Source: Halovenus rubra (lineage in GTDB: Archaea; Halobacteriota; Halobacteria; Halobacteriales; Haloarculaceae). Taken from it: a DNA stretch of 64,000 nucleotides. Position numbers and translations under genes: made by a program. The notes below the pieces were generated by a model. That model ran no database searches, was not told the DNA's origin, and saw only the letters and a list, made by a program, of their open reading frames with translations. Where the stretch lies: NCBI RefSeq assembly GCF_026586665.1, contig NZ_JAODIY010000013.1, positions 62,001 through 126,000 on the forward strand, given 5' to 3'. Shown one piece after another: positions 21,857 to 28,800 of this stretch (within the stretch, counting starts at the first letter, position 1; the number at the start of each line of letters is the position of its first letter).

Positions 21857-23797
21857 CTACTGCAGGAAGTCCGGTTCGATGCGTTTGTTGCCGACTTCGT
21901 CTTCAAGATGGGCCCGAAACTCGTCGACTGAGAAGTCTTTCTGTTGGTTTTCAAACCGGTCACGAACCGAAACCGTTCCCTCATCTTCCTCGTCGTCGCC
22001 AACGATAATCATGTACGGGACGCGGTCATCGTGGGCTGCCTGGATTTTCTTGCCCACAGTCCATGAACGGTCCTCGATTTCGACTCGGAACTCGCCGAGG
22101 TCGGCGTTTTTGAGTCGCTTGGCGTAGCCGATATTGTCGTCAGAAACCGGGAGGATACGGACCTGCTCGGGCGCAAGCCACGTCGGGAAGTCACCGCCGA
22201 AGTGCTCTATCATCACGCCCATGAACCGCTCGAAACTGCCAAGCAGCGCTCGGTGGACCATCACCGGCTGGTGGTCCTCGTTGTCTTTGCCGACGTAACT
22301 CAAATCGAGGCGCTCCGGGATGTTGAAATCGAGTTGCACCGTGCCGATAGTCCACTCACGCCCAAGTGCGTCGCGTGCGTCTAACCCGATTTTTGGCCCG
22401 TAAAACGCTGCCTCGCCGGGTTCAACATCGTAGTCAAGGCCGATAGATTCAAGCGAGTTTCGCAGTCCCTGCGTTGCTTCGTCCCAGATATCGTCGCTAC
22501 CGACCGCGTTGTCGCCTTTGGTCTCCAGTTTGTACAGAACTTCGAAGTCAAACAGACTATAAATCTCTTCAATTATTTTGAGTGTCTGAGTGATTTCTTC
22601 TTCAATCTGGTCACGGCGGATAAACGCGTGGCCGTCGTCTTGGGTCAGCCCGCGAACGCGCAGGAGTCCCGACAACTCGCCGGACTGCTCGTTACGATAG
22701 ACGGTTCCAAACTCGGAGAACCGGACCGGAAGGTCACGATAGGAGTACTGCCCCTCCGAGTAGATATGAGCGTGGTTCGCACAGTTCATCGGCTTGAGAC
22801 CATACTCGGTCTCGTCTTGGTCCCACGCAAACATTTCGCCTTCCTCTTTGAATGCCTCGTAGTGGCCAGTCGGTTTCCAGAGTTTTGCCTTATTCAACTC
22901 GGGCGTCCAGACCTCGTCGTAGCCAAGTTCCTCGTTTTTGTCTCTGATATACTCCTCTAGCTCGCGACGAATCTGCATCCCATTGGGGTGATAATGCGCA
23001 CAGCCTGGCGAGTGGTCCGGGACCGAAAACAAGTCCATCTCTTGGCCGATTTTGCGGTGGTCGCGCTCCTCGGCCTCCTTGCGACGCTGAATGAACGCTT
23101 CTAAGTCGTCCTCGCTTTCAAACGCCGACCCGTAGACTCGAGTGAGTTGGTCGTTTTCCTCGTCGCCACGCCAGTAAGCGGCAGACATCTCCAGCAGCGT
23201 TATTGCTCCGATTTCGCCGGTCGAGTCGACATGAGGGCCTTCACACAGGTCTTCCCAGTCATCCTGAATGTAGAACGAGACAGTCTCTTCGCCGCTGGCC
23301 TCGTTTTCCAGAATGCCCTGCTTGTAATGGTTGTCTTCGTACTGCTCGACAGCCTCCTCATGGGGCCGTTCGACGCGTTCTAGCTCGTAATCTTCCTCAA
23401 CGATGTCGACCATTTCAGCCTCGATTTTGTCGAGGTCTTCCTCATCGAGGTCGACACCTGAGATGTCGTAGTAGAAACCGTCGTCGGTCGACGGACCAAT
23501 AGCAAGCTTTGCCTCGGGATAGTGTCGGTGAAGGGCTTGGGCAAAGACGTGAGCGCCTGTATGACGGAGCACGTCAAGATACTCAGCGCTATCTTCGGTG
23601 ACAATCTCAATCCGACAGTCTTCGGTCAGCGGAGTCGCTTTGTCGACGAGGTCGCCGTCGACGACGCCAGCGATTGTATCCTGCCCCAGTCCAGGGCCAA
23701 TTTCGAAGGCGACATCCTCGACCGTTGCACCGCGCTCAACTTCTAGCTCCGAGCCGTCTGGTAGGACGACAGTTATGGTAGACGCTTGTTGTGACAT
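21857..23797 (-). CDS. thrS: Threonine-tRNA ligase, bacterial type
   Basis: A 646-residue class II synthetase. An N-terminal TGS domain (residues 1-65) is followed by the bacterial-type editing domain, whose zinc-like site is visible: HTGAH (H79, H83) and LCEGPHV (C185, H189). The catalytic core has [27 protein letters not shown] split over the zinc-binding Cys, motif 2 [23 protein letters not shown] and motif 3 [16 protein letters not shown]; the anticodon-binding domain ends the protein. Most archaea use a different, DTD-like editing domain, so this gene was probably acquired from bacteria by the haloarchaeal ancestor. A strong Shine-Dalgarno GGAGGT sits six bases before the ATG at 23797 and fixes the start. 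Confidence 0.97.
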
Positions 23798-23913
23798 CTG
23801 TATACCTCCCCCGAGAGAACCGTATCGGGGCTGTGCTGATGCCGTGGCTGGTCGGGCGGCCCACGGCAGAACTGACAGGTGTCGCTCACAGCGGGCCTGT
23901 AAAACGGACACCT
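23798..23913 (-). promoter_or_regulatory. Structured 5' leader of thrS with three hairpins
   Basis: Read on the coding strand, three hairpins follow each other before the thrS ATG. P1 pairs AGGTGTC (23913-23907) with GACACCT (23883-23877) and contains an inner ACAG/CTGT helix around GCCCG. P2 pairs GCCGTGG (23867-23861) with CCACGGC (23847-23841). P3 pairs CCCCGA (23830-23825) with TCGGGG (23814-23809), and its 3' arm runs into the Shine-Dalgarno GGAGGT (23809-23804). An alternative ACAGG/CCTGT pairing competes with part of P1. A TTTTTGACC element lies further upstream (around 23944-23954) and may be the promoter. Confidence 0.5.
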
Positions 23914-23995
23914 ACCATCATGTCATCCCTTTTCCGGTCCCCGGTCAAAAAGATTGCGCTCGCAAATCTGTGTCCTGTTTCCGCCCCACAGCCAC

Positions 23996-24790
23996 TCACG
24001 ATTTGTCTGAGTCGGCAATAAAGGCCCTCGTGTTGGCGTCAACCTCATGGATGAACGAGTTATCAGGGCTCCATTCAGAGATGGTCTCGTTACTAATTGA
24101 GACTGTCAGTGTTTCTCCGGCTCCGACAGTGAACCGAACCGGTTCCGGTCTTCCCTCGCCACGTGACGCGGTTGTACATCGGAAGATACCGTCGCGACTC
24201 CCTCGGTTTTCAACTGCAAGCTCCAGGTTCGTCTTTCCGTTTTGCTCTCCGATGTCTGCCGATGTCAGATGGAACTCGGGGGCAACATCGAACGAACTGA
24301 CCAGTTCTTCCGGAACACGCCAGCTCGGGCTAATTCCTCGTGTAAACCGAACACTGGCCGATTCAGCCGTGCCGATAGGCATCCCCAACCCAACCTCTTC
24401 GCTATTCTCAGTTATCGCGATAGCCGTGGGAATTTCCGTCCCTGACACGGCTGTCTCACCGTTGGTTTCAAGAACAAGGTTCGAACCGATGTCGTCGCTT
24501 TGTATCCTATTAGCTGAGATAGACACCCGAAGAAACTGGCCGTCCTCTGGTTCGTACACTCTATTATTTTGGCGAGGGGCGATAATCGAACGGCGGAGTT
24601 GGGTCGCAGTCACGCGTAGCGTGCCACCGTCAGCCTCGACGATGCTACCATTGTCTACCGTAACACCGCTGCTTTCGGCACTCCCGACAGCAACACGCTC
24701 AGTCCCGATGTCAGTATCGTCATCAAGACATCCTGCTGATACCGTGCCAACTGTTGTACTCGCCACCGCGAGAAACGACCGGCGGTCCAT
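23996..24790 (-). CDS. Tat-exported lipoprotein, unknown function
   Basis: A 264-residue secreted protein. The N-terminus DRRSFLAVASTTVGTVSAGC carries an RR motif of the Tat type and a lipobox Cys at residue 21, after which an acidic spacer begins. The mature part is beta-rich and looks like two immunoglobulin-like domains (EDGQFLRVSISANRI; GKTNLELAVENRGSRDG; VRFTVGAGETLTVSI), reminiscent of the haloarchaeal surface proteins with paired beta-sandwich domains. No catalytic motif. It lies upstream of thrS on the same strand, with the structured leader between them. Confidence 0.82.
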   Translation of the reverse strand: MDRRSFLAVASTTVGTVSAGCLDDDTDIGTERVAVGSAESSGVTVDNGSIVEADGGTLRVTATQLRRSIIAPRQNNRVYEPEDGQFLRVSISANRIQSDDIGSNLVLETNGETAVSGTEIPTAIAITENSEEVGLGMPIGTAESASVRFTRGISPSWRVPEELVSSFDVAPEFHLTSADIGEQNGKTNLELAVENRGSRDGIFRCTTASRGEGRPEPVRFTVGAGETLTVSISNETISEWSPDNSFIHEVDANTRAFIADSDKS

Positions 24791-24863
24791 GCCATATCTT
24801 CCAACAGCACTCTCATATACCTGTTGGCAGTGAGAATAGAGTGCCTTCTGGCGGTCCTAAATA

Positions 24864-25811
24864 TTAGTCTGCGAGCGCCTCGCCGGAAGCCGTCGTGGCG
24901 TTGGGGTCCTGTATCCAAAGATCGCCAAAGAGATCGTCTTGCTGGAGGCGAATCTGACCACGGTGTGAGAGAAAGAGCAAGCCGAGGTACGTCTCGACCC
25001 GCGACCCGCCAACTTCGGCCACTTCTTGAAAAAGGACCTCGGTTCGACCCTGATCGTACTGCTCTCGAACAGTGGCGTACACGTCGTCGATGATAACGTC
25101 GATTTCTTCACCGTGTGCCTTTTCAGTCACGTCAGCTTCAGTCGGTTCGTCGTCCATCCGAAACTGGTCGGCCGAGCGATAATCTAGTTCCTGCGTGCCG
25201 CGGTTGTACTGCTCGGGAGAGTCGCTAGTGTCGTACTCACGGGACTCTTTCCACCAGTTGTCTCGTTCTGCCTCGCGGAGGTCACGGACCAGTTCGTCGA
25301 GCGTCTGTGGCATCCCGCGTGCTCGTTTTCGCTCTAGCCGTCGGTCCATCTCCTCTTCGAGCGTGGCGAATGGGTCTGGCTCGTCCAGTGGTTCGTCACC
25401 AGCCATAGCCTGTTCCCATGGCTCGGGAGCCTGCTCGTCGTCCTCATCATCGGAGAGCATCGCGTCACTTTTCATCCGAAGGAGGACACTCGCATAAAAG
25501 AGCGCGCGCCCAGAGGACCCGAGGTCAGCCCTGTCTACCCGGTCGAGGAATTTGTCGGTCACTTCTACGATATCGATATCCCAAGGGTCAATGTCTCCGT
25601 CCTCGGCAAGTTGGACCAGAACCTCGACCGGTTCGACTTCTTCGTCGTCTGGCTCTCTGTCTCCACTCTCTTCGGTGGGGCTTTTAGTACCAGTCGACTC
25701 CGCGTCGGTCTCGTCGGCATCAAACAGCTCAGTTGAGTCCTCAGCGGGCGGGTCACGCTCGTCGTGTCCAGTGATGTCCAGTGGAATCTCTGAATCAGTC
25801 ACGGTTGCCAC
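24864..25811 (-). CDS. scpA: Segregation and condensation protein A (kleisin)
   Basis: A 315-residue kleisin that bridges SMC heads. A long acidic, disordered N-terminus (residues 1-58) is followed by the ScpA core: PVEVLVQLAEDGDIDPWDIDIVEVTDKFL, then LFYASVLLRMKSDAML; the C-terminal winged helix has VLFQEVAEVGGSRVETYLGLLFLSHRGQI. It starts with GTG at 25811, 11 bases after the smc stop, so the two genes form an operon. An ATG at 25816 is out of frame. ScpB is not in the window. The acidic stretches between domains are typical of haloarchaeal ScpA. Confidence 0.94.
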   Translation of the reverse strand: MATVTDSEIPLDITGHDERDPPAEDSTELFDADETDAESTGTKSPTEESGDREPDDEEVEPVEVLVQLAEDGDIDPWDIDIVEVTDKFLDRVDRADLGSSGRALFYASVLLRMKSDAMLSDDEDDEQAPEPWEQAMAGDEPLDEPDPFATLEEEMDRRLERKRARGMPQTLDELVRDLREAERDNWWKESREYDTSDSPEQYNRGTQELDYRSADQFRMDDEPTEADVTEKAHGEEIDVIIDDVYATVREQYDQGRTEVLFQEVAEVGGSRVETYLGLLFLSHRGQIRLQQDDLFGDLWIQDPNATTASGEALAD

Positions 25812-25822
25812 CCCATAGCGAG

Positions 25823-28800
25823 TTAATCATCGGCTGGTACCTCCGACCCGCCTGAGAGGTCGATTCCGGTCACTGCAGAGACATTGTTCTCTTGCATCGT
25901 CACTCCGATTGCGCGCTCAGACCGTTCGAGCATCGCCGACCGGTGAGAGACGACAACAAACTGGGCCTCTCCCGCGAGTTCATCGACAAGTTCACCGACG
26001 AGTTCTGCGTTCGCTGCATCGAGGAATGCATCAACCTCGTCCAGCGCGTAGAACGGTGCCGGGTTGTGACGCTGGATTGCGAAAATAAATGCAAGTGCAG
26101 TCAACGATTTCTCACCGCCACTCATGGCGTTAAGCCGCTGAATCGGCTTATCTCCCGGTTGGGCTTTCATTGTTAGCCCACCCTCGAATGGGTCAGCCTC
26201 ACTTTCGAGGTGCAGTTGTCCGGTGCCGTCCGAGAGACGTTCGAAGATTGTTTGAAACTGCTCGTCGATTGCCGTGTAAGATTCCATGAACGTCTCTTTT
26301 TTGCGCGCTTCGAATTTGTCGATGCGGTTGCGAATGCCATCGGCCTCTTCGACGAGCGTCGCTTTCTTGTCTTGGAGCTCAGACAGTTCCTCTTGGACCG
26401 TATCGTACTCCTCAATTGCGAGCATGTTGACTGGTTCAAGCGCAGACATCTCGCCTTCGAGCCGGGCAATCTCTGCTTCGACTTCGTCGTGGTCGGGGAC
26501 CTCCTCGGGATCGTAGTCTCCGACCTCGCTTTCGAGTTCCGTTATCTCCCAGTCAAGTGTCTCTTTGTCCTGACGCAACTCCGTGAGCTCTGTCTCAGTT
26601 TCTGAGACACGCTCTTTGGCTTCGTCGCGTTGTGTCCGTGCCTCGTCGACATCCTTGCGAAGCGATTCTCGCTCGGATTTGAGCTCGGCGAGTTCCGCTT
26701 CGAGCTCTGCCACTTCTGTTTCCTTTTCGTCGAGTTCAGTTTCCTTGTCTGTGATTGTCGCTTCGAGAGTCTCGATTTGTGCCTCGGCGTCGGCTTTGCG
26801 GTTCTGTGCGTCTTCGATTGTCTCGTTGCGTTCCTCGATTGCTTCTTCGGCGTACTCTTTTTCGAGCGTTACCTGGTTGAGTTCGCTTTCGATGTCGTCA
26901 ATACGAGCGTTCGCGTCATCGATTTCTTCCCGAATTGATTCCGCTTTTGCCGTCAGCTCCGGCAGTTCCGAATCTGCCACCTCGGCCTCCAGTTCGTCGA
27001 TAGCTGACTGGATTATGGCGATAGCTTCGTTCTGGTCGGCAATTGCCGCTTCGAGCTCATCCATCTTGTCCGAGACCTCCTCACGGTCGGTCTCAATTTC
27101 GTCGAGTTCGTCAGTTAGCCGTGTGATTCGAGACTCTGTTTCGGCGACCTCGCTTTCGCGTTTCTCGATATCGGACTCGATTTCTCGAACCTGCTCGGCA
27201 GCCTCAGTTTCGCGGTCACGAGCGTCTTCGAGTCTGTCCTCAAGTTCACGAACCTCTGTCCGGACCGACTGTCGCTTCTCTTCGAGTTCGTTGATACGGG
27301 CCGCAACTCGTTCGAGTTGGCCATCGGTCCCCTCAAACGAGTAGCGAGACCCTTTCTTTGACCCACCCGTCATCGCCCCCGACTTCTCGACGAGGTCGCC
27401 ATCCAGCGTGACAATGCGGAAATTACCCATCAGTTCACGGGCCGTCTCGATGGTGTCGACGACAAGGGTGTCGCCGAGTACATACGAGAAGATACCTGCG
27501 TACTCCCGCTCGAAATCAACGAGATTGTACGCGAAATCAACGACACCCTCGTGGTCGGGCAGGGACGGCAACGAACGTTGACTCATCTTCGTGATAGGCA
27601 AGAACGTTGCCCGCCCCGCGTTGCGGGATTTAAGAAATTCAATACAGCGTTGGCCCACCTGGTCGTCATCAGTCACGACGTTCGCCAGTCGTCCACCAGC
27701 AGCTGTCTCACACGCTGTTGCGTACTGATTCGAGACACTCCCGAGCTGGGCGACAGTTCCGTGAACACCGTCGACACCGGCGTTTAGAATGGCGGTCACT
27801 GCGCGACCATATGAGCTATCGCCCGACTGTCCCGCCTTGGCTTCGAGTTCTGCGTACTCTTGTTGTGCGGCGTTGAGTGTGTCCTCGATATCATCAAGGT
27901 CGCCTTGCCGCTCTCGTTTCTCGATTCGCAAGTCGTCTACCACTTTCCCGATTGTCTCGTGGTTCTCGTTTGCTTTTTCGAGTTCTACTTCGAGGTCCTC
28001 GATATCCGCTTTTATTTTTGGAATCTGTGCCGTTGCTTCTTCAATTGCCTCTTGCTTTTCGCGTTTCTCTGAAGATCGCCGACGAGCCTCATCGAGCAGC
28101 CGATCTTGCTCGCGCTGGAGGTCGTTTTTCTCTGCTTTTGCTGCCTCTAGTTCCTCTTTTTTGCTCTGGAGGTCGTTTTTGACTTCCTCGAACTCCTCGC
28201 CAACGTCGTCGATACGAGCCTCGACTGCGTCGAGTGACTGCTCTTTTTCCTGAACGTCAGCGGCAATAGATGACTTCTCAACTTTCAGCTCTCGGATATC
28301 ACCTTCAAGCTCATCGAGTTCTTCTTGTTTGCGGTCAATCTCGACAAATGCCTGCTTTCGGTCGCTTTCGGCGTCTTCAATACGGGCCTGTTGTGACTCG
28401 ATTTTGTCTTCGAGGCGGGCAATATCACCTTTTATTTCTTCCATCTCGCGCTTGATGGCGAGTTGCTCGTCTTCGCCTTTGCGCTCAATTTCGCCGTTGA
28501 GATGGTCCAGTTCGCTTTCAAGTCGCATCAGTTCACCCTGATGCTCGTCGAGGGTCGACTGGCGCGTTTCGAGTGTCTCGGTTGTCTCCGTAATAGTATC
28601 CTCGACAGTGGCAAGCTCCTCGCGTTTCGTTTCAAGCTCGGCCGCCTTACGATAGCTCTCGTATGTTTCTTTCTCTTCTCTGAGAGTCTGATACTGGAGG
28701 GCAGTCTGGCGTTCGTCTTCGAGTTGGTCGAGGCGGTCAGTTTTTTCTTCAATACGGAGTTCAGCCTCTTCGATTCGGTCCTCGACGACATCGAGTTCCT

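Follow-up and report, generated by a model that had tools for sequence, protein, structure and literature searches.

Within the window, the 64,000-nucleotide stretch of Halovenus rubra DNA analysed here, thrS lies on the minus strand (21857..23797, with its ATG at 23797) and encodes a bacterial-type threonyl-tRNA synthetase (ThrRS) of 646 amino acids matching the NCBIfam model TIGR00418 (threonine--tRNA ligase). The window's genome belongs to the same genus as Halovenus salina and H. aranensis. An earlier note on this DNA had described a three-hairpin RNA leader at 23798-23913 preceding a strong GGAGGT Shine-Dalgarno (SD) of thrS, and the SD is indeed present on the minus strand (23809-23804). 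We identified a short upstream ORF (uORF) within the same leader (23886..23918, minus strand), reading ATG GTA GGT GTC CGT TTT ACA GGC CCG CTG TGA, with a second ATG in frame at 23921. The interval given in the earlier note contains the hairpins and begins 5 bases late, cutting the start codon of the uORF at 23918.

A promoter-like sequence of the BRE/TATA type, GCGCAATCTTTTTG (23946..23959, minus strand), is common to Halovenus thrS leaders, the upstream regions of 15 Halovenus thrS genes sharing a promoter-like GCGCAATCTTTTT followed by ATGGTAGGTGTCCGTTTTACAGG about 26 nt further on. In 89 of the 98 haloarchaeal leaders the uORF ATG follows the start of the promoter box by 33-34 nt, a spacing that is consistent with a leaderless translation start at this ATG and argues against a transcription start downstream of P3, the hairpin that ends on the SD. 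SD-like sequences are missing upstream of thrS in 74 of the 98 leader-bearing haloarchaea.

The uORF is conserved with the consensus M-x-G-x-x-[F/P/L]-T across 98 distinct haloarchaeal and 16 nanohaloarchaeal leaders, all leader counts being drawn from related genomes and thus not representing independent events. Within the window's family the form M-x-G-x-x-F-T, with a variable end, precedes thrS in several other genera. A genome-wide search utilizing a covariance model of the uORF and hairpin P1 (R2), built solely on this family, identified one match each in 128 of 392 Halobacteriales genomes, representing 40 of 95 genera. The downstream gene was checked for approximately 90 of the 128 matches and was thrS in every case, 30 of 30 by tblastn and the 60 further matches by fetching the locus and reading the thrS start downstream. 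The same uORF precedes thrS in Nanohaloarchaea, a separate phylum in which ThrRS is 61-68% identical to that of the window. Reading upstream of other synthetase genes (two Pfam families, four genomes) revealed no uORF of this kind. In many haloarchaea, including Halorubrum, Halomarina and Halorientalis, thrS is leader-less and stands directly behind its promoter. The single match per genome, the location of all fetched matches at thrS and the covariation of P1 described below together lend good support to the suggestion in the earlier note of a synthetase-specific control element, here at an archaeal thrS.

The frame-0 Thr codon of the uORF is invariant in all 114 distinct leaders. In the GC-rich haloarchaea this codon is ACA in 98 of 98 leaders, against 1 of 253 Thr codons (0.4%) in the thrS genes themselves, where ACA is the rarest Thr codon, and the codon before it is TTT in 96 of 98, against 8 of 251 Phe codons (3%); both backgrounds were taken from 15 thrS genes of the same haloarchaea. 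On the basis of these counts we predict a +1 shift site at TTT ACA (23898..23903, minus strand), with Phe in the P-site and Thr in the A-site. The 16 nanohaloarchaeal leaders contain TTT, CTT, CCC or CCT followed by ACC, ACT or ACA, and such synonymous Thr codons indicate that it is the decoding of Thr which is conserved. The conserved feature is thus Thr decoding behind a pyrimidine-rich, predicted slip-prone codon, and TTT/CTT/CCC/CCT followed by ACN supplies the slip-prone P-site codon and slowly read codon that characterise +1 frameshift sites of the RF2 type. Upstream of the site, AGGTG (23909..23913, minus strand), which also forms part of the P1 5′ arm, is complementary to the 16S 3′ end (CACCT) and is a possible internal SD; the 16S 3′ end GGATCACCTCCT was found in genomes G000 and G253. 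GGTG is present 5 nt upstream of the slip codon in 96 of the 98 haloarchaeal and 13 of the 16 nanohaloarchaeal leaders, and the conserved RGGTG, which would pair with the 16S 3′ end, lies 5 nt from the slip codon, or 7 nt when counted from its AGG core.

All three of the hairpins in the earlier note, P1, P2 and P3, exist in the sequence and were recovered by folding the leader. The fold energy of the leader is ordinary (z = -0.33; 72 of 200 shuffles equal or better) and is therefore uninformative. P1, first described as AGGTGTC (23913-23907) paired with GACACCT (23883-23877) plus an inner ACAG/CTGT, can be extended to 10 bp between a 5′ arm GGTAGGTGTC (23916-23907), containing the G of the uORF ATG, and a 3′ arm GACACCTGTC (23883-23874) directly after the uORF stop, both on the minus strand. 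The compensatory changes in relatives that had been proposed as a check were found for P1: in an alignment of 18 sequences with loops removed and 3′ arms chosen by hand, 87% of cells were paired and 8 of 12 pairs had changed on both sides, giving a covariation score above all 500 shuffles, while sliding the register reduced pairing to 29-41%. In a blind MAFFT alignment the pairing of P1 was 80% versus 28-57%. P1 is thus strongly supported as a real hairpin in haloarchaea by its covariation; it was not seen in nanohaloarchaea. Two Halovenus leaders, L094 and L095, retain P1 and the Thr codon and have lost both TTT and GGTG, with the leader down to 72 nt and the GG/CC pairs of P1 replaced by AA/TT in L095; they may reveal the action of P1 without a frameshift site.

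The inner stem ACAG/CTGT (23888..23900, minus strand) was seen in the fold of the window and is weak in Halovenus. Outside this genus its place is taken by a GGGC/GCCC-type hairpin directly 3′ of ACA, with stems exchanged in several lineages, which could add to a ribosome pause. P2 (GCCGTGG 23867-23861 / CCACGGC 23847-23841, minus strand) was likewise seen in the window fold and is unconfirmed by alignment folding, RNAalifold run on 14 aligned relatives having returned no shared structure for the P2-P3 region. P3 (CCCCGA 23830-23825 / TCGGGG 23814-23809, minus strand), which ends on the SD, is not general in relatives, a P3-like stem at the SD occurring, as judged by eye, in some Halovenus only. 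Opening and closing of P3, the switch envisaged in the earlier note, cannot be general since P3 is not conserved and most leaders have no SD, and we rejected P3/SD gating in this role.

From the predicted shift site the +1 frame (23798..23899, minus strand) reads without a stop into thrS in the window genome. In nanohaloarchaea this frame is open from the Thr codon in 15 of 16 leaders against 3.2 expected from dinucleotide shuffles, with 1 stop against 24.7 expected, and in haloarchaea it is open to within 33 nt of the thrS ATG in 93 of 96 leaders against 62.6 +/- 4.5 expected from shuffles. The conserved +1 frame is thus open up to a putative functional end: in 13 of the 16 nanohaloarchaea its first stop and the thrS start together form ATGA (-3 to +10 in the remaining ones), and it falls between -33 and +40 of the thrS start in 86 of the 98 haloarchaea, 27 of these 98 having it between -11 and +5. 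The -1 frame follows the same end rule in only 15 of the 98 haloarchaeal leaders. Stops overlapping the start or within about 10 nt of it, the arrangement used in termination-reinitiation, are thus the form seen in nanohaloarchaea and, in part only, in haloarchaea, where 51 leaders have the +1 stop 13-40 nt past the ATG, an overlap longer than is usual for haloarchaeal termination-reinitiation. Nine of the 98 haloarchaeal leaders do not fit the rule: four have the +1 stop at -47 to -69, three have it deep within thrS, and two show none in the 51-59 nt available. In three of the 98 (the window, L195 and L253) the +1 frame is fused to thrS, and together with its good SD this suggests that the window copy may be partly freed from coupling.

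Where +1 stops fall inside thrS they are mostly made of the rare codons ATA or GTA. ATA accounts for 37 of 61 Ile codons with a leader versus 0 of 36 in leader-less thrS (Fisher p 1e-10), and the ATA:ATT ratio is 37:2 with a leader versus 7:11 in the background, though ATT is equally AT-rich. Although leaders range from 72 to 268 nt in length, 74 of the 98 haloarchaea and 15 of the 16 nanohaloarchaea have the uORF start in the thrS frame, which we interpret as a secondary consequence of the need for the +1 frame to finish at the start codon; among the 24 haloarchaeal uORFs out of frame with thrS, 21 obey the +1 rule, for example with TGACATG in Halosimplex and ATGGCTAA in L156-L158. The in-frame relation had also suggested stop-codon readthrough, which was rejected given the many frame-0 stops between uORF and thrS in nanohaloarchaea (33 in 322 codons after the uORF stop), and an intron or ribosome bypass, which were dropped because neither predicts a frame rule.

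The uORF, the invariant Thr codon and the conserved +1 frame, none of which the earlier note had recognised, all point to ribosome frameshifting. A leaderless start, a slip codon, a rare cognate codon, an early frame-0 stop and a +1 frame ending at thrS form the layout that a +1 switch needs, and given that, as observed here, the uORF, its codon choices and the frame architecture are conserved, P1 covaries and the element is specific to thrS, we consider that the thrS leader is probably a ribosome-operated sensor of charged tRNA-Thr acting through such a switch. We infer from these features the frameshift itself, its dependence on Thr-tRNA, its coupling to thrS and the role of P1, as follows. 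The transcript would begin at the uORF ATG or immediately upstream of it, and ribosomes would translate the uORF as a leaderless message. When Thr-tRNA is plentiful TTT-ACA would be read in frame 0 and the ribosome would terminate after 10-18 codons, long before reaching thrS. Under Thr-tRNA shortage it would instead wait at the rare Thr codon, and the peptidyl-tRNA on TTT (CTT or CCC in some relatives) would slip by +1, starved or hungry codons being known to favour +1 shifts (PMC5009743). The shifted ribosome would then run through the open +1 frame and terminate at the thrS start, at an ATGA, TGATG or TGACATG junction or within an overlap of about 10 codons, such that thrS is translated by termination-reinitiation coupling. 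In Haloferax volcanii such coupling has been measured for ATGA and TGATG junctions (PMC6728339, PMC10666635) and depends sharply on distance (PMC10666635). In the window and the two other fusion-type leaders the +1 frame would instead continue straight into ThrRS, a shift at TTT-ACA in such hosts yielding ThrRS with the N-terminus MVGVRFQARCERH. Extra ThrRS would restore charging, closing a negative feedback loop. P1, which contains the G of the uORF ATG together with AGGTG, could shut the 5′ end in the absence of ribosomes, and probably does so while the uORF carries none.

Certain features count against this model. A single Thr codon makes a small sensor, the spacing between AGGTG and the slip codon is longer than in RF2 and offers no obvious +1 push, and P1 is unexplained by frameshifting alone. 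A rival explanation is ordinary amino acid attenuation, in which a ribosome stalled at the Thr codon would hold P1 unpaired, and translation or transcription of thrS would be controlled by P1 or its partner strands with no frameshift. The Thr codon never varies, it lies within the covarying P1, and the uORF stop immediately precedes the 3′ arm, as in a classical leader-peptide attenuator; a cognate codon does stand in a conserved short leader ORF, though as a single conserved codon. Attenuation predicts neither a +1 frame open to and ending at the thrS start, nor the TTT, nor the out-of-frame ATA and GTA stops, and P1 was not seen in nanohaloarchaea. Nor did we find a conserved alternative pairing or U-run in the leaders or, with P1 alone conserved and no general SD, the mutually exclusive hairpins of a terminator or ribosome binding site sequestrator, and we regard this explanation as improbable.

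We assign a similarly low likelihood to a pair of overlapping uORFs read without any frameshift, one from the leaderless ATG in frame 0 and the other from a GTG in the +1 frame, with only the GTG ORF reaching and coupling to thrS. Such a GTG, part of the GGTG motif, does lie just upstream of the Thr codon in 15 of 16 nanohaloarchaeal and 96 of 98 haloarchaeal leaders. It stands about 8 nt from the leaderless 5′ end, leaving no room for a ribosome-binding site, and leader L023 has no ATG, GTG or TTG at this place, yet keeps the open +1 frame and the ATGA. Two starts would also leave unexplained the invariant frame-0 Thr codon and the TTT, CTT or CCC preceding it.

The earlier note had further suggested that the leader may bind ThrRS itself, the uORF then being incidental to a structured RNA operator like that of E. 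coli thrS. The covariation of P1 and the constant position of the element before thrS would be expected of such an operator, but its primary sequence is conserved as frame-0 codons with synonymous Thr changes, P1 tolerates the GG/CC to AA/TT exchange in L095 and is not seen in nanohaloarchaea, and no NGU anticodon-like loop is conserved among the leaders read. The conserved parts have the look of neither a tRNA-Thr mimic nor a T-box, and an Rfam scan covering 22000-26500 with E values up to 10 listed no T-box and nothing above threshold, so that direct binding by ThrRS is not supported and appears very unlikely. That the hairpins arose by chance in an unregulated leader, as a fold energy no better than shuffles might suggest, is the least credible explanation, being already refuted for the uORF and P1 by thrS-specific recovery over 40 genera and two archaeal phyla, covariation and invariant rare codons, though P2 and P3 may be chance structures.

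In bacteria, it is textbook knowledge that mRNA leaders control aminoacyl-tRNA synthetases. The E. coli thrS operator and the Firmicute T-box resemble the present case in controlling thrS through its leader. The haloarchaeal leader, as far as its sequence can tell, lacks the defining features of a T-box and gives no hint of an operator like that of E. coli, its conserved parts being codons and an open +1 frame in place of tRNA-like or T-box elements. Leader-peptide attenuators of the pheM and thrL type likewise sense aminoacyl-tRNA through cognate codons in a short ORF, but utilize a run of codons and a terminator hairpin and are bacterial, whereas the thrS leader is archaeal and leaderless and would act through one codon, a frame change and coupling. 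The autoregulatory +1 frameshift of bacterial RF2 (prfB) shares with the thrS leader a slip-prone pyrimidine codon before a slowly read codon and a possible internal SD upstream of the shift site. The internal SD of prfB, expected about 3 nt upstream of the shift codon in RF2-type sites, is more closely spaced than AGGTG is here, and its slow codon is UGA instead of a Thr sense codon. In prfB the output is the full-length protein, while in the thrS leader the proposed shift would occur in a separate uORF and its output, fusion variants excepted, would be coupling to the next gene. In the telithromycin-induced ermC leader shifted ribosomes continue into the spacer and thereby activate the gene behind it, as proposed for thrS; ermC differs in that the signal is a drug and the system bacterial. 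We are aware of no dedicated, conserved frame in ermC that would end where the gene starts. The telithromycin frameshift is reviewed in PMC5009743 (section 28). By analogy, the proposed thrS leader would place RF2-like autoregulation in a leader peptide and share its output route with ermC under telithromycin.

Termination-reinitiation at overlapping haloarchaeal genes utilizes the same ATGA and TGATG junctions (PMC6728339, PMC10666635), but at thrS the upstream frame would be reached only after a frameshift and many leaders overlap for longer. Programmed frameshifting in archaea provides a precedent for recoding; a 2021 review lists a single cellular frameshift (-1, in a fucosidase gene) along with examples from haloarchaeal viruses, and no leader sensor is among them (PMC8211752). 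A 2016 review knew of no example of hungry-codon frameshifting making functional trans-frame proteins (PMC5009743). In a literature search that reached few subscription papers, we found no description of a haloarchaeal thrS leader or of mRNA-leader control of archaeal aminoacyl-tRNA synthetases. To our knowledge no natural counterpart of such a frameshift switch has been described. We lean towards the view that in haloarchaea and nanohaloarchaea hungry-codon frameshifting itself serves as a natural sensor, with a leaderless uORF, a +1 slip at TTT-ACN and thrS switched on by coupling or fusion. If true, a regulatory sensor built on hungry-codon frameshifting would have its first natural example, a cellular gene of archaea would be found to use a +1 frameshift, and leaderless uORFs would gain a working role. 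The element is present in about one third of the sampled Halobacteriales genomes as well as in nanohaloarchaea, and the long-standing suggestion that starvation frameshifting could be exploited becomes testable.

A number of further observations were made at thrS and other loci. Leader-less haloarchaeal thrS genes (for example L100-L135) usually start with ATGAGC right behind a TCTCAACACACTTATCC-like promoter, whereas leader-bearing ones start with ATGTCA and are rich in TCA, a pronounced change of codons at the 5′ end. A second thrS on a plasmid of Halovenus salina (L022) matches only residues 123/153-646 and is N-terminally truncated or divergent. Around the uORF stop, nanohaloarchaeal leaders such as L024, L160 and L172 contain a conserved small hairpin whose stems are exchanged (CAGCT/AGCTG, CTAGA/TCTAG); behind it lies a possible second thrS promoter, a TTCAAAACCTTTTCTATAAA-like stretch. 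Approximately 100-120 nt upstream of valS in two Halovenus (L274 from G000 and L277 from G002) a GC-rich hairpin lies behind GTAGTA with its stems exchanged (GGGCC-gtctt-GGCCC versus GGGGC-gtttct-GCCCC), and may represent a separate leader element.
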